Positions 5,608-20,039 of a stretch of DNA of 64,000 bases are shown in pieces. This stretch comes from Actinosynnema sp. ALI-1.44. Lineage in GTDB: Bacteria > Actinomycetota > Actinomycetes > Mycobacteriales > Pseudonocardiaceae. Numbering within the stretch: the stretch's first letter is position 1; every line of letters starts with the position of its first letter. The notes under the pieces are model-generated. The model saw only the letters and a list, made by a program, of their open reading frames with translations, did no database searches and was not told the origin of the DNA. The stretch is taken from the NCBI RefSeq assembly GCF_001984155.1, contig NZ_MTQO01000050.1:186001-250000 (forward strand), read 5' to 3'. The translations under genes were made by a program, and so were the position numbers.

Positions 5608-8412
5608 TCAGTTGTCCTGGGCCGCGTTGACCGGAGGTCCGGCCGGACGCGACGCCGACCGCCTGCGCTGACGCCGTGGCGGTGGCGCGAGCACCAGATC
5701 GTCGTCGACGCCCTGCGGCACCTCCGACGAGTCAGGAGCCACCTCGGGCTGGGCCGACACGGCGTGGCCGTTGGTGCCCGGCGTGTGCTCCGCGGCTGCG
5801 GACCTCGGCTCGGGCGCCGTCTCGCCGTTCCCCGACTGCTCGGGCTCCTCGGCCACCGCGGCCTGGGGCCCGGCAGCCTCGACCACCGCGGCAGCCTCGA
5901 CCACCGCGGCAGCTTCGACGGCCTCGGCGACCTGGTCGGCCTCGGCGGCGGCTTCCGCTGCCGCCTGCACAGCCTCCGCGGCGGCTTCGGCGGCCACCTC
6001 GGCGGACTCAGCCGCTTCCGCGGCCTCGGCGGCCTCCGCTGCCTCGGCACGGGCGCGCTCGGCCTTGGCACGGCGCTCCGCCCGGGTCGGCCGCTCCCGC
6101 GTCCGCTCGGCGGGCTTGTCCTCCGCTTTGGCGGACTTCGACGGCTGGTGCTGCTGACCGCCGCCGTTGCCGCCACCACCGTTGGCCTTGAAGCCCAGGT
6201 CGGTCGACACGATCACGCCACGCCCGCGGCAGTGCTCGCAGGTGGCGCTGAACGCCTCCAGCAGGCCGGTTCCGACGCGCTTGCGGGTCATCTGGACCAG
6301 GCCGAGCGAGGTCACCTCGGCGACCTGGTGGCGTGTCCGGTCGCGGCCGAGGCACTCGGTCAGCCTGCGCAGCACCAGGTCCCGGTTGGACTCGAGGACC
6401 ATGTCGATGAAGTCGATGACGATGATCCCGCCGATGTCGCGCAGCCGCAGCTGGCGGACGATCTCCTCGGCCGACTCCAGGTTGTTGCGGGTGACCGTCT
6501 CCTCGAGGTTGCCGCCCGATCCGGTGAACTTGCCGGTGTTCACGTCGATCACGGTCATCGCCTCGGTGCGGTCGATGACCAGGTAACCGCCGGACGGCAG
6601 CCACACCTTGCGGTCCAGCGCCTTGAGCAGCTGCTCGTCGATGCGGAAGTCGGTGAACACGTCCGACGGGCCGACGTGCCGCTGCAGGCGCTCCTGCAGG
6701 TCCGGCGCGACGTGCCGGACGTAGGCGTCGATCGTGTCCCACGCCTCGTCGCCCTGCACGACCAGCGCGGAGAAGTCCTCGGTGAACAGGTCGCGGACGA
6801 CCTTGACCAGCAGGTCCGGCTCCTCGTAGAGCAGCGTCGGCGCGCTGGCCTTCTTGACCTCGTCGGAGCCGTGCGCCTTGTCCTTGATGACCTGCCACTG
6901 CGCCTGGAGCCTGCGCACGTCGCGGGCCAGTTCGTCCTCGCTGATGCCCTCCGAGGCGGTCCGGATGATCACACCGGCGTCCTCGGGGACGATCCGCTTG
7001 AGGATGTCCTTGAGCCTGCGCCGCTCGTTCTCCGGCAGCTTGCGGCTGATCCCGGTGGCGCCGCCGCCGGGCACGTACACCAGGAACCGGCCCGGCAGGC
7101 TGATCTGAGTGGTCAGCCGGGCACCCTTGTGCCCGACCGGGTCCTTCGTGACCTGCACGAGCACGCTGTCCCCGGTGGACAGCGCCTGCTCGATCCGGCG
7201 GGCCTTGCCCTCGAGACCGGCGGCGTCCCAGTCGACCTCACCGGCGTACAGCACGGCGTTGCGGCCGCGGCCGATGTCCACGAACGCGGCTTCCATGCTG
7301 GGCAGCACGTTCTGCACACGGCCCAGGTAGACGTTGCCGACCAGCGAACCGGAACCGGACGCGGTGACGAAGTGCTCGACGAGCACACCGTCCTCCAGCA
7401 CACCGATCTGCGTGCGATCGGTCTGCTCGCGCACGATCATCTTGCGGTCAACGGACTCACGACGGGTGAGGAACTCCGCCTCGGACAGGATCGGCGCGCG
7501 GCGGCGACCGGCCTCACGGCCGTCCCGGCGACGCTGGCGCTTGGCCTCCAGGCGGGTCGAGCCGCGGACACTGCGCACCTCGTCGCGGTCCGACCTGTCC
7601 GGCTTGTCCGCCTTGGGCTTTTCGTCCCGCGCCTCACGGACGTGCACCACCGTGTTCGGCGGGTCGTCCTCGTTGGCCGCGGCCTCGTCGTCGGCCGACC
7701 CCTTGCGGCGGCGACGGCGCCTGCGGCGACGGCTCCCGCCGTCGTCGGCGGACTCGTCGCTGTCGTCCTCGGCGGACTCGGCCGCTTCCGGCTCCTCGGC
7801 GGACGCGGTGGCTGCCGGGGCCTCGTCGTCGTCCTGCTCGTCGCCGGCCTCGTCGTTCTGCCCGCCCTTGCCCCGGCCGCGGCCACGACGGCCACGACGG
7901 CGACGCCGACGGGTCGAGGCGTCGTCGTCCGAGGCGTCGTCGGTGTCGGCCTCGTCGGCCTCCTCCACGGCCTCCTCGGCGGGCTCTTCGACCGGTTCCG
8001 GCTTGGCCACCGGACGCGTCTGCGCCTCCGGCGGCAGGAACAGCGGCGACGCCGAGGCGAACAGCGGCTGCCGCGGGCGCCTGATCCCGGTGGCGGGCTC
8101 CTCGACCGGCTCCGGCTCGGCCGACTCGGCCTCGGCGACCGGCTCCGCCGGCGAGGGCGACTCCGCCGGTTGCGGCGCCTCGTCCTCTTCCACCTGGGGG
8201 GCGAGCGCGTCGACGACGCGCTGCGCCACCTCACGGCTGACGCTGGACTGGGCGCTGCGGACCTCTTCGTCCATGTCCGCGAGGGCCGCCATGACCTCGC
8301 GGCTGCTCGCTCCGAGCAGCTTCGCCAGGGCGTGCACCCTGATCTTCGGCGGCAGGTCGATCAAATCCCGCTCGGTGTTGTCGTCACCGGCGGACGCTGT
8401 CGTGTCCGACAT
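5608..8412 (-). CDS. rne: Ribonuclease E/G family endoribonuclease with IF2-N-like N-terminal domain
   Basis: Processes rRNA and decays mRNA. Of 934 residues, the first 50 resemble the IF-2 N-terminal domain (LPPKIRVHALAKLLGAS), followed by about 250 residues of alternating acidic and arginine-rich low complexity. Then come the S1 domain (GNVYLGRVQNVLPSMEAAF), the catalytic DNase I-like core (VIDVNTGKFTG, IVIDFIDM) and the zinc link CEHC. The tail is Ala/Glu/Val-rich with a tandem 18-bp DNA repeat at 5873-5908. The ATG at 8412 is chosen for its GGAGGAGC; the longer frame starting at 8616 has arginine-rich sequence that looks non-coding. Confidence 0.95.
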   Translation of the reverse strand: MSDTTASAGDDNTERDLIDLPPKIRVHALAKLLGASSREVMAALADMDEEVRSAQSSVSREVAQRVVDALAPQVEEDEAPQPAESPSPAEPVAEAESAEPEPVEEPATGIRRPRQPLFASASPLFLPPEAQTRPVAKPEPVEEPAEEAVEEADEADTDDASDDDASTRRRRRRGRRGRGRGKGGQNDEAGDEQDDDEAPAATASAEEPEAAESAEDDSDESADDGGSRRRRRRRRRKGSADDEAAANEDDPPNTVVHVREARDEKPKADKPDRSDRDEVRSVRGSTRLEAKRQRRRDGREAGRRRAPILSEAEFLTRRESVDRKMIVREQTDRTQIGVLEDGVLVEHFVTASGSGSLVGNVYLGRVQNVLPSMEAAFVDIGRGRNAVLYAGEVDWDAAGLEGKARRIEQALSTGDSVLVQVTKDPVGHKGARLTTQISLPGRFLVYVPGGGATGISRKLPENERRRLKDILKRIVPEDAGVIIRTASEGISEDELARDVRRLQAQWQVIKDKAHGSDEVKKASAPTLLYEEPDLLVKVVRDLFTEDFSALVVQGDEAWDTIDAYVRHVAPDLQERLQRHVGPSDVFTDFRIDEQLLKALDRKVWLPSGGYLVIDRTEAMTVIDVNTGKFTGSGGNLEETVTRNNLESAEEIVRQLRLRDIGGIIVIDFIDMVLESNRDLVLRRLTECLGRDRTRHQVAEVTSLGLVQMTRKRVGTGLLEAFSATCEHCRGRGVIVSTDLGFKANGGGGNGGGQQHQPSKSAKAEDKPAERTRERPTRAERRAKAERARAEAAEAAEAAEAAESAEVAAEAAAEAVQAAAEAAAEADQVAEAVEAAAVVEAAAVVEAAGPQAAVAEEPEQSGNGETAPEPRSAAAEHTPGTNGHAVSAQPEVAPDSSEVPQGVDDDLVLAPPPRRQRRRSASRPAGPPVNAAQDN

Positions 8413-8630
8413 GTAGCTCCTCCGCCCCCGGGCGCGTCCATGCCTGGACGCGGCCGCACAGGGGCCTCTCCTGTTCGGTCCCCGGCTCGCGGCCGCGGAC
8501 GTTGTGTGCCGGTCCCTTCGTCGCCTTCCCCTGACGAGAGCCGGTTCGTTGGTTCTCTGCCTTGCCTGGCCCGCCGCGCGAACGGCGGGAATCCTCGCCT
8601 CACGCCACCCGCCCACACGGGTGACACAGG

Positions 8631-16793: not shown

Positions 16794-17573
16794 CTAGACC
16801 TCCAGCCTGCGTCGGAAATACCGGACCGTCAGGAACCACCCGACGGCGGACAGCGCGAGCAGGTACGCCACATGCCCGAGCACCGGCCAGAGTTCGAAGT
16901 TCCAGAAAGCGGCGGCACGGGTGAGCTCGGTGCCGTGCCACAGCGGGGTGATCCACGCGAGCGGGCGCACGACCGCGGGGAGTTCGCTGACCGGGTAGAA
17001 CGTGCCCGCCAGCAGCGTCATCGGCAGCACGATGAACCGGAACACCGGGTTGAACTTGTCCCCCTCGCCCTCGACGGTCGCGGCGAACGCGACCAGCGGC
17101 GCGGCGAACGCCATCCCGGTCAGCACGGCGAACACGAGCGACAGGACGATGCCCGGCCCGGCCGCCGCGCCGAGCGCGGTGCCGATGATCGCGAACACGG
17201 TCAGCGAGAACGTCAACCTGCCCAGGATCCACAGCAGCTGACCGGTGGCGACCTGGGCCGGGGTGATCGGTGTCGCCGTCATGCCCCAGTACACGCGGCT
17301 CCACTTGAAGCCCGAGAGGATCGGGAACGTCGACTCGCCCGCCGCGTTCTGGATCGCCGCGGCGGCCAGCATCGCGGGCATCAGGTAGACGACGTAGCTG
17401 TAGCCGTGGGTGAGCCCGCCGGGCTGGATCTGCGAGCCGAGCCCGAACCCCATGGCCACCAGGAAGAAAACCGGGCTGAGCAGGGACGAGAAGACCGTCG
17501 CCCGCCAGTTGCGGCGGTACCAGGTCCACATCGACTCGACCACCAGCAGCCGGGCCTGCCAAGGGCGCAGCAT
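16794..17573 (-). CDS. ABC-2 type permease (first of pair)
   Basis: 259 residues. Start ATG 17573 overlaps the ATPase stop by one base (TGATG). The block KWSRVYWGMTATPITPAQVATGQ and AGTFYPVSELPAVVRPLAW parallel the second permease, so the two probably form a heterodimeric channel with the ATPase. The membrane-distal part begins with a short charged helix and RNWRATVFSSLLSP. Confidence 0.9.
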   Translation of the reverse strand: MLRPWQARLLVVESMWTWYRRNWRATVFSSLLSPVFFLVAMGFGLGSQIQPGGLTHGYSYVVYLMPAMLAAAAIQNAAGESTFPILSGFKWSRVYWGMTATPITPAQVATGQLLWILGRLTFSLTVFAIIGTALGAAAGPGIVLSLVFAVLTGMAFAAPLVAFAATVEGEGDKFNPVFRFIVLPMTLLAGTFYPVSELPAVVRPLAWITPLWHGTELTRAAAFWNFELWPVLGHVAYLLALSAVGWFLTVRYFRRRLEV

Positions 17574-18496
17574 CAGTCCACCAACGTCCGGCCAGTCAGG
17601 CGCAGGAACACGTCCTCGAGCGTGGAGCGGCGAACCAGGCTGGACACCGGCGTCACTCCCCTGGTGTGCGCCGCGGCCAGCGCCGCCTCGCCGTCGGTGG
17701 TGTAGACCAGGACCCGGTCCGGCAGGACCTCCACGCGCTCGCCGAGATCCCGCACCGGCTCGGGGTCCTGCTCGCCCGGCGGGAACCGCAGTTCGAGGAC
17801 CTCCTTGGTGGAGTAGCGGTCGATCAGCTGACTGGGACTGCCCTCGGCGGCGATCCTGCCCTTGTCCATCACCACGAGCCGGTCGCACAGCTGCTCCGCC
17901 TCGTCCATGTAGTGCGTGGTCACGATCAGCGTGACCCCCTGCTGCTTGAGCCGGAACAACCGGTCCCACAACAGGTGCCGGGCCTGCGGGTCCAGGCCGG
18001 TCGTCGGCTCGTCGAGCAGCAGCAACTCGGGGTCGTTGACCAGGGACCTGGCGATGGTCAGGCGCCGCTTCATCCCGCCGGACAACGGTTCGACCTCGTC
18101 GTCGGCGCGGTCGGCCAGCTGCGCGAACTCCAGCAACTCGGCCGCCTTGTCACGGACGTGTTTGCGGGACAGCCCGAAGTACCGCCCGTACACCTGGAGG
18201 TTCTGCCGGACAGTCAGCTCGTTGTCGAGGTTGTCCTGCTGCGGCACGACGCCGAGCCGGGCGCGGATCTTGGGCCCTTCCACGGTCGGGTCCATCCCCA
18301 GCACACGCAACTCGCCGCCGGACCGCGGCGAGACACACGCGACCATCCGCATGGTGGACGACTTGCCCGCACCGTTGGGACCCAGGAACCCGAACGCCTC
18401 GCCCTTGCGCACCTCGATGTCGATGCCGGCGACAGCCTCGAAGTCCCCAAACCGTTTGGTCAGCCCCTCGGCCAGGACCAGAGGATCAACAGACAC
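17573..18496 (-). CDS. ABC transporter ATP-binding protein, DrrA/NodI-like
   Basis: 307 residues. Walker A GPNGAGKSST, signature LSGGMKRRL, Walker B LLLLDEPTTGLDPQ and THYMDEAEQL are all present. A C-terminal extension of about 80 residues, typical of drug-exporter ATPases, follows. GTG start. First gene of a three-gene exporter operon with two permeases. Upstream lies the gene-free repeat region, so the promoter should be in 18497-18620. Confidence 0.92.
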   Translation of the reverse strand: MSVDPLVLAEGLTKRFGDFEAVAGIDIEVRKGEAFGFLGPNGAGKSSTMRMVACVSPRSGGELRVLGMDPTVEGPKIRARLGVVPQQDNLDNELTVRQNLQVYGRYFGLSRKHVRDKAAELLEFAQLADRADDEVEPLSGGMKRRLTIARSLVNDPELLLLDEPTTGLDPQARHLLWDRLFRLKQQGVTLIVTTHYMDEAEQLCDRLVVMDKGRIAAEGSPSQLIDRYSTKEVLELRFPPGEQDPEPVRDLGERVEVLPDRVLVYTTDGEAALAAAHTRGVTPVSSLVRRSTLEDVFLRLTGRTLVD

Positions 18497-18643
18497 CAGG
18501 GCACCTTAACCGCCACCACCGACAAACGGCGGGTGGATTACCCGCTTCCACCTCACAGGACAGCCCCCACCCGGCAGGCTTCATCAAGGTCGCCGTCGTT
18601 TACCGGTCTTGTTTGTCGGGTCTCGGCCTGGGTTGGTGTGGAG

Positions 18644-18658
18644 TGTGCAGCCTGCACA
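18644..18658. repeat. 15-nt palindrome at edge of the repeat cluster
   Basis: TGTGCAG and CTGCACA flank a single central C: a perfect 7-bp inverted repeat, suited either to a protein dimer or to a hairpin base. Confidence 0.5.
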
Positions 18659-18679
18659 GGGTGGTGCTTCGGGGTTTGT

Positions 18680-18807
18680 CCCTTCCGTATGGCCTGGGCG
18701 CGGCCCAACCACACGTGTCCAGAGGTCCGCCAGCACAACCAGCCCCGACGACAGCGCAACGGACCTCTTGACGCGTGTGGTTGCCTCTGGCAGGCCGTAC
18801 GGAAGGG
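18680..18807. repeat. Long imperfect inverted repeat 1 (arms about 50 nt)
   Basis: Left arm 18680-18729, right arm 18760-18807. Segments CCCTTCCGTAyGGCCTG and AACCACACGyGTCmAGAGGTCCG pair almost completely. Two of the differences are G-U wobbles if the plus strand is transcribed. The loop is about 30 bases. Both arms are homologous to those of the repeat at 19092-19225. Confidence 0.75.
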
Positions 18808-18893
18808 AGAAACCGCGCCCCTGACCCCCGGGGCACTGCGCCACGACCCGGCGCTGAAGCCGACCTGACCCTTTCCCTTTCGGTGGCCTGCCT

Positions 18894-19009
18894 CCCGGCG
18901 AGGGCTTCTTTTCCCCTCTGTGCCCCGGTGGTTCGGACATCTATGCCCTGGGGCACGGTGACGGTCATGCCGCGGTGTCCCCCGGGTGAAAAGAAGGGCC
19001 CTCGCCGGG
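18894..19009. repeat. Long imperfect inverted repeat 2
   Basis: Arms 18894-18916 and 18984-19009 share CCCGGCGAGGGC then TTCTTTTC with a two-base insertion. A smaller perfect hairpin, GTGCCCC/GGGGCAC (18920-18926, 18950-18956), lies inside the loop. Confidence 0.65.
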
Positions 19010-19020
19010 AGCAGACCTCG

Positions 19021-19101
19021 GGGCAGGAGGTCTTCGCGCCATGTTCTTCCCGGCGCATGTTTTTATGACCTGGGGTTTCAGGGCGCGGGCGCCTCCTGCC
19101 C
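19021..19101. repeat. Inverted repeat 3, sharing an arm with repeat 4
   Basis: GGGCAGGAGG at 19021-19030 pairs with CCTCCTGCCC at 19092-19101, but that right arm is also the outer left arm of the repeat at 19092-19225. The two structures exclude each other. A small AGACCTC/GAGGTCT hairpin (19013-19033) competes as well. Confidence 0.55.
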
Positions 19102-19225
19102 GTCGACCTGCCCCAGGGAACCACGGACTGTCAAGAGGATCGGTACCGCTGTCGCTGGCGCCGGTTGTCGTAGGCCGACCTCTGGACAGACCGTGGTTGG
19201 CTTCGCCCAGGCCGACGGGCAGGAG
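19092..19225. repeat. Long imperfect inverted repeat 4 (arms about 47 nt)
   Basis: Left arm 19092-19138, right arm 19179-19225. TCCTGCCCGTCG, CCTG and AACCACGG.CTGTC.AGAGG pair between arms. Aligning all four arms of repeats 1 and 4 gives a shared unit containing GGCCTG, AACCAC and GTC(A/C)AGAGG in alternating orientation. Confidence 0.75.
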
Positions 19226-19586
19226 ACACCCCCGAAGCCCACCTCTGCGCTTGCGCGCGAGCTCGTTGGCGCGCGGCCACCTTGGGCCGCGGTTGCGGGC
19301 AGTGACTGGGTTCGGATCGCGCACCCAGCTCTGCGCCGGGCACAGCCGATCAGACCGGTGCTGATTGGGGCTGGGCATGGGCATACTCACCACGCGCTCT
19401 GGCCCAGATCTTCGCAGTCTCTGAGGCCACATTCTCAACGACCGACCTTGACAGTCCCCCACCCAACCCGGGGGGCGTCCCTGCTCCAGTCTACCGGTGA
19501 TATGGGCTGGTCGAAGGGCTACCGGCGGGTTGTGGACAACTGGATTTGGTGAAGTAACCATGGGCTTGACGAAGTGGTGTCAAGCG

Positions 19587-19628: not shown

Positions 19629-20039
19629 TCAGAGGTTCGGGAACCAGAGGTCGATCTCGCGCTTGGCCGAGTCGGCCGAGTCCGAGCCGTGCACCAGGTT
19701 GTACTGCACCTCGGTGCCGAAGTCGCCGCGGATGCTGCCGGGCACGGCCTTCTCGACGGGATCGGTGCCCCCAGCGAGCTGGCGGAACGCGGGGATCGCG
19801 CGCACGCCCTCGACCACGATCGCGACGACCGGGCCGCCGGTGATGAACTCGACGAGCGAGCCGAAGAACGGCCGCTCCTTGTGCTCGGCGTAGTGCTGCT
19901 CGGCCAGCTCCTTGCTCACGTGCTTGAGCTCGAGCGCGACCAGGCTCAGGCCCTTGCGCTCGATCCGGGAGATGACCTCTCCGACCAGGCCGCGGCTCAC
20001 ACCGTCGGGCTTGACCAGGACAAGGGTGCGCTCGCTCAC
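19629..20039 (-). CDS. ndk: Nucleoside diphosphate kinase
   Basis: Transfers phosphate from ATP to nucleoside diphosphates through a phosphohistidine. 136 residues starting [13 protein letters not shown]; the catalytic His is in NLVHGSDS, with [11 protein letters not shown] and the DP residues of the nucleotide pocket earlier. GTG 20039 is chosen because AAGGAG lies upstream at acceptable spacing and the length is canonical; the long frame above it is a phoD shadow. In mycobacteria ndk follows the folC-DUF4233 pair directly; here phoD is inserted between. Confidence 0.97.

Follow-up and report, generated by a model that had tools for sequence, protein, structure and literature searches.

REP and BIME repeats, which often occur as inverted pairs, are associated with RAYT transposases, and the ERIC and Correia elements are MITEs, non-coding palindromic sequences amplified in intergenic DNA. 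The single-strand origins of rolling-circle plasmids are long, imperfect, strand-polar hairpins in the non-coding DNA of a replicon that has an HUH-type initiator. AICEs are actinomycete integrative conjugative elements, for which tRNA genes are a usual integration site. According to PMC3733652, REPs are 20-40 bp long and tagged by GTAG or CGTC. Within an AICE remnant, SCO3932 is described as KorSA-like, SCO3933 as Pra-like, SCO3934 as TraSA-like and SCO3936 as RepSA-like in PMC8584621, and the AICE gene names used here follow those descriptions. Here we describe a family of large palindromic repeats whose core hairpin also recurs at a constant place in AICEs. In a literature search that was thin for subscription papers, we found no paper on such an AICE hairpin or on this repeat family, and none combining pMEA300 with an inverted repeat.

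The window, a 64,000-nucleotide stretch of the genome of Actinosynnema sp. ALI-1.44, contains one copy of the element (Table 1). Its neighbours, identified with Pfam, are the genes for an ABC-transporter ATPase (17573-18496, minus strand) and a nucleoside diphosphate kinase (ndk; 19629-20039, minus strand), a tandem pair, with the element on the upstream side of the ABC gene. No integrase, RepSA or FtsK-like Tra gene of an AICE was found at the element, and an Rfam search of the window returned two tRNAs only and no family matching the element. A first-pass annotation of the sequence had recognized two large palindromes and a third between them, and an inverted-repeat search recovered all three in place. 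The lateral palindromes pair 18670-18696 with 18791-18817 (89% complementary), 18706-18729 with 18760-18783 (92%) and 19084-19110 with 19208-19234 (85%); the central one pairs 18892-18905 with 18998-19011 (100%) and 18905-18916 with 18985-18996 (92%). The entire 600-odd bp form one imperfect palindrome, 65% over 584 bp against its own complement, and because the whole region is self-palindromic it is one element and not several separate ones piled up. The annotation also saw no protein frame that explains the region. We rejected a coding explanation since the overlapping long frames resemble the usual shadow frames of GC-rich DNA, and since compensatory changes distinguish the arms of the many copies, which does not fit a protein.

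Table 1. Parts of the palindromic element in the window (positions of the window; a point marks features to which no strand is assigned)
Feature	Position	Strand	Basis
Whole composite element: two A-B units, inverted (tail-to-tail)	18640..19272	.	Homology extent in other genomic copies; right-boundary alignment
Hairpin A, left copy (L type), AACCACACGTGTCCAGAGGTCCG	18678..18809	+	Model R2, 109 bits (training member); fold, pairs
Box B, left copy, CCTGCCTCCCGGCGAG	18887..18902	+	Pattern match, 77 nt after A as marked by R2
Central hairpin from two B arms (18892-18916 with 18985-19011)	18892..19011	.	Inverted-repeat search
Box B, right copy	19001..19015	-	Pattern match
Hairpin A, right copy (R type)	19092..19226	-	Model R2, 92.9 bits (training member)
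Outer short-repeat zone, start (CTGCGCTTGCGCGC...)	19246..19300	.	Alignment of the copies' outer ends, by eye

The element is built from a hairpin, A, and a partner box, B. Hairpin A is about 110-134 nt long and consists of an outer stem, one small hairpin per strand (of the GGC...GCC and CCC...GGG types) and an inner stem built on AACCAC..GTCAAGGGG / CCCCTTGAC..GTGGTT, which together give a four-way junction; box B follows the pattern CTGCC..CGGCGAG. Both hairpins of the window belong to the training set of model R2, so that their R2 scores in Table 1 are matches by construction. An example of the extent of the composite is at C19:60973-61586, which in the own-genome search matched query positions 156-771 at 91%.

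Several smaller sequences accompany the element. The outer short-repeat zone is short at the window copy, with longer arrays at other copies, as judged by eye. At locus L018, arrays of units of about 25 nt (CTGCGCTTGCGCGCAAGCCGCAAACC) occupy 1420-1500 and 2130-2290 and point outward on both sides, as do arrays flanking many copies, and in other genomes arrays of a different unit were seen by eye at the corresponding outer places. A second short repeat lies beside the window element at 19447-19560, with a CCCGGGGGG stretch and TTGTGGACAA, the latter of which we take to resemble a DnaA box; it recurs near hairpin-A copies of Kibdelosporangium aridum (L043, L084) and about 100 bp from another own-genome copy (C41:78533-78630). 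A promoter at the TTGACA of the stem was considered as well, and a simple consensus scan found none.

Folding of 18600-19260, which the first-pass annotation had proposed for both strands, gave -404 and -405.8 kcal/mol (z of -12.0 and -16.8), and none of 20 dinucleotide shuffles on either strand was as stable. The covariance analysis it had proposed likewise supported the pairing. In alignment A2, which comprises 29 hand-chosen sequences, 95.0% of cells are paired compared with 85.4% in shuffles; for 18 of the 41 pairs, at least one sequence has both partners changed, a value reached in 1 of 500 shuffles, and 101 cells are changed on both sides against 27.5 in shuffles, a value reached in none of the 500. 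Sliding the structure by 1-3 columns left 37-49% paired, a control that favours the A2 structure because this was drawn from one member, L126. Ten anchored inner-stem pairs, with one sequence per genome from 36 genomes, were 97.8% paired against a shuffled mean of 70% (0/500 as high); the anchored arms come from the 77 of 161 rows that carry a motif fixing the orientation, the other 84 being other-strand readings or forms missed by the motif. Covariation thus strongly supports the four-way-junction fold of hairpin A. It is expected equally for folded single-stranded DNA and for RNA.

The search for further copies, another of the proposed checks, found many in the own genome (11.7 Mb in 54 contigs) and in congeners. 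Searching the genome with the region gave at least 127 alignments, with 40 of the 142 first-look candidates scored, among them four long copies with 88-92% identity. At least part of a hairpin A was present in 39 of the 40 places fetched, which hold 58 hairpins by HMM, and one additional hairpin lies beyond these places at C51:85727. Inverted dimers like that of the window make up 19 of the 39 loci; in the other 20 one A was seen, and contig ends truncate some of these loci. The annotation's notion that separate repeats had accumulated here is therefore set aside in favour of a single unit whose spacing stays the same from copy to copy. Several of the copies lie at contig ends, so that in a few cases two of them may together make up one copy, and palindromes of this kind may be points where assemblies of these genomes break. 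In the congener G005, all 40 loci fetched from among the matches listed contain hairpin A, with 13 inverted dimers, 26 single copies and one other. With hairpins shorter than 90 nt left out, the distance from A to the box B behind it is 87-93 nt for 54 of 56 own-genome hairpins; in G005 it is 61-98 nt for 46 of 52. A-B is a rigid building block, and the window element is two modules of the type found in AICEs joined as mirror images.

DNA searches matched seven of the eight genomes of the genus, own included; the sole exception, G002, is a single contig in which neither the DNA search nor model R1 found the element. The genus of the window genome includes Kibdelosporangium aridum (DSM 43828) and Actinocrispum wychmicini (G007, DSM 45934). 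A genome deposited as 'Rhodococcus rhodnii' NRRL B-16535 (G006; L081, L087 and L088 on JOAA01 contigs) groups with the window's genus and carries its repeats, and its species label looks wrong.

Beyond the genus, model R1, made from 41 hairpins and applied with strict filters and a cut-off of E 0.001 on rough E-values, matched at least 59 of 297 genomes of the family, in 14 of 46 genera. This count is a lower bound, since model R2 found the hairpin beside AICEs in genomes for which R1 had listed none. The highest numbers of R1 hits per genome, at least 12, are in genera g1 and g22, with 1-6 elsewhere. A class-wide search with R2 matched 3 of 394 genomes, the own genome among them; the other two, G371 and G588, belong to other families and match the model weakly, and we do not claim them as members. 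Loci L191, L192 and L194 of these two genomes have long palindromes around GTCAAGGG...CCCTTGAC. Neither the whole region nor one AICE form had a blastn match in plasmids and phages.

Comparison of orthologous sites indicates both old and possibly recent copies. At least seven of the 39 own loci have flanks that match those of the 40 loci listed for G005; in six cases both sides match, and in the seventh the sole testable side does. Ten of the other 32 own loci were chosen, and their flanks were sought in G005 and in K. aridum (G001). Eight of the ten are collinear in G005, where the spacer is shorter in five and longer in three, and two are not collinear; R2 detected no hairpin A in these eight regions or in five G001 regions (13 in total). 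We had to reject the view that such sites are simply empty for five of the eight in G005: a blastn comparison using four whole elements detected fragments that resemble box B or the outer end in the regions L227, L229, L231, L232 and L233, and these may be either remnants or a smaller B-only element. The same search found no element pieces in the five collinear G001 regions. The elements of L010, L022 and L029 have no trace in either congener, although the flanks on each side of the absent stretch can be aligned. In place of the element at L022 and L029, both congeners carry, by eye, short plain GC hairpins between the same genes. The other collinear loci are at least partly old, eroded sites, and loss and erosion explain part of the difference between genomes. 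At the ABC-ndk site, R2 gave only a chance-like match in relatives (L071, 14.7 bits, E 0.086), and blastn found element pieces in G005 (56 bp at 86%, E 3e-13), whereas the other six relatives gave none. The first-pass annotation had spoken of mobile palindromic repeats; the repeat family, with dozens of genomic copies, stands, and movement would account for the three traceless loci, with the remnants suggesting that other sites are older.

In G223, which belongs to a different genus, the core is nearly identical in six copies, and a seventh is a variant. All seven end sharply at CCCGTGAAC (GCCCGTGAAC), and the flanks beyond differ or are partly repeated. Among nine aligned pairs, a 15-bp overlap that could be a target-site duplication was seen for L010 against G005, and the other eight pairs had none. 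Such inconsistency would speak against a plain DNA transposon.

The link to conjugative elements, which the first-pass annotation did not foresee, came from other genera. We fetched 30 loci, a subset of the hits, from genera other than g1 and g22, and sought in all of them AICE marker proteins taken from L121, L122, L124, L126 and L128; as these are five of the tested loci, this marker test alone is partly circular. An FtsK-like Tra was found in 16 of the 30, a Pra-like gene (the SCO3933 family, with a weak NCBIfam match) in 13, and GntR only in three, and 11 had none of the markers used. Counting from these 11 loci alone, five have a tRNA gene within about 1.6 kb. Near the AICE hairpin of L122 lies a gene (5757-7298) encoding a fusion of HTH and peptide deformylase domains.

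A reverse test began from Pra, with 21 loci taken as every fourth row of the Pra list (two picks were shifted by one row, one of these a hit). A hairpin was found within about 9 kb in 11 of these, and the other ten had no hairpin, some of the stretches being cut by contig ends. In all 24 loci where Pra, Tra and the hairpin occur together, the hairpin and Tra are on opposite sides of Pra, with the hairpin 1354-5764 bp from Pra. A Kor-like GntR gene, found in ten of the 24, is between Pra and the hairpin in all ten. The orientation of A is the same in 23 of the 24, the exception being L209, where the motif was not found, and B is on the Pra side of A in 23, the exception being L200, where B was not found. 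The A-B gap in AICEs is roughly 50-75 nt, shorter than in the chromosomal copies. The A-B module is thus a regular part of many AICEs of the family that have Pra-like and FtsK-like Tra genes. Since no Pra-like gene was found in the own genome at E 1e-5, the AICE link there rests on homology and on a congener. Among five AICE loci in the two multicopy genera, the hairpin is present in L200 and L220 and absent from L199, L201 and L202.

The congener locus L200, in G006, is the one complete AICE found with the hairpin and contains an integrase, RepSA (PF20199, 4e-154), FtsK/SpoIIIE, a GntR-UTRA regulator and a Pra-like gene, with the hairpin at 8015-8150. A 15-bp direct repeat at 7842 and 18323, the second copy directly behind the integrase gene, probably marks the ends (att), although a second direct repeat of 16 bp at 8612 and 19736 makes the assignment non-unique. 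The locus thus has the integrase, RepSA, FtsK-like Tra, Kor and, probably, att repeats of an AICE, and it is the one AICE here in which RepSA was demonstrated. Given the probable att repeat, the hairpin is probably about 160 bp inside the integrase-distal end, and in the excised circle it would adjoin attP.

We consider it probable that the module is a cis-acting structure of the AICE end, perhaps a single-strand origin, that has also spread as REP/MITE-like chromosomal repeats. It would have begun as an AICE DNA structure that works while the DNA is single-stranded. PMC3218068 reports that RepSA-like proteins have motifs in common with HUH rolling-circle initiators, and on that account such elements should make single-stranded DNA. 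Our best guess for the role of A-B in AICEs would be a single-strand origin used after RepSA rolling-circle replication, a tentative assignment by analogy, at less than even odds. Detached copies would have been pasted into chromosomal intergenic sites, where they would now act as a REP/MITE-like family that is gained and eroded. Because the module is fixed in the AICEs of several genera and abundant in only two, its descent would more simply have run from AICE to chromosome than the other way.

The positions of the copies among genes could suggest that the palindrome is instead a host-genome two-way transcription end or insulator, which closes off genes and which AICEs carry to shield their outer end. 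Classes of context were assigned with a simple GC3 gene caller, with other spacers in the same fetched regions as background. In G005, 19 of the 38 classified copies are convergent, 17 tandem and two divergent (two of 40 unclassified), compared with 4, 19 and 16 of 39 background spacers of at least 100 bp (Fisher p 1.6e-4) and 21 convergent of 124 background spacers of any length. The own genome has 13 convergent, 14 tandem and three divergent copies among 30 classified (nine of 39 unclassified), but with only three background spacers (p 0.26) its background is too small, and the convergent bias rests on G005. The plain GC hairpins at L022 and L029 and the place of the AICE hairpin beyond kor and cargo genes also fit a terminator. 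Yet tandem copies are about as numerous as convergent ones in both genomes, the window copy itself is tandem and upstream of the ABC gene, and the kor gene of L200 is directed away from the hairpin. The region lacks the GC hairpin with U-tract of an intrinsic terminator (0 U-tract terminators against 0.7 expected), and the conserved blocks, the four-way junction and the partner box would be superfluous for a mere terminator. We regard this explanation as somewhat unlikely.

A bolder variant of the cis-acting reading, which we think unlikely, is that the near-att structure is of a kind not yet described, read as folded single-stranded DNA by rolling-circle or transfer machinery that can also act on the dozens of chromosomal copies. 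These would then be hot spots where a resident AICE starts, captures or pastes chromosomal DNA.

It is quite unlikely that the family is an ordinary MITE of a conventional transposase for which AICEs are merely frequent landing places. Multiple gene-free copies with inverted ends, the loci without trace in two congeners, and the six near-identical cores, variant and sharp right end in G223 would all be expected of a MITE, but random landing would not give the same side in every case and the same polarity in all but one across AICEs of several genera, and a candidate target duplication was seen in only one of the nine aligned pairs. A structured non-coding RNA, a regulator in AICEs that was amplified in two genera, agrees with the complex, covarying fold, its compensatory changes and the sequence blocks conserved across genera, but is very unlikely given the lack of an Rfam match, promoter-like sites numbering 0 against 0.1 expected (weak, as from a simple consensus scan), two strands that fold about equally well, many copies in two genera, and covariation that folded single-stranded DNA would show equally. 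The first-pass annotation had set many copies and covariation against each other as signs of a repeat family or of an RNA; both hold here.

The cis-acting AICE structure that we favor would link a defined part of a conjugative element to a kind of repeat family for which an origin can seldom be given. It would also make A-B a concrete candidate for a cis function of AICEs, as a single-strand origin or a transfer site.

Compared with REP and BIME repeats, the family likewise consists of dispersed extragenic palindromes in many copies, often as inverted pairs, but hairpin A alone exceeds 100 nt and has a four-way junction where the REP unit has 20-40 bp, and a related structure sits in conjugative elements. 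Like the ERIC and Correia MITEs it is multicopy, has inverted ends and is non-coding, as judged from the list of open reading frames and from covariation; it differs from them in the core shared with a fixed part of AICEs and in showing a 15-bp overlap in only one of nine aligned pairs. AICEs of the pSAM2 type carry A-B on the side of Pra away from Tra, whereas the window element is without any AICE genes. With the single-strand origins of rolling-circle plasmids the AICE module shares, in a purely anatomical likeness, a long strand-polar hairpin in the non-coding DNA of a rolling-circle element.
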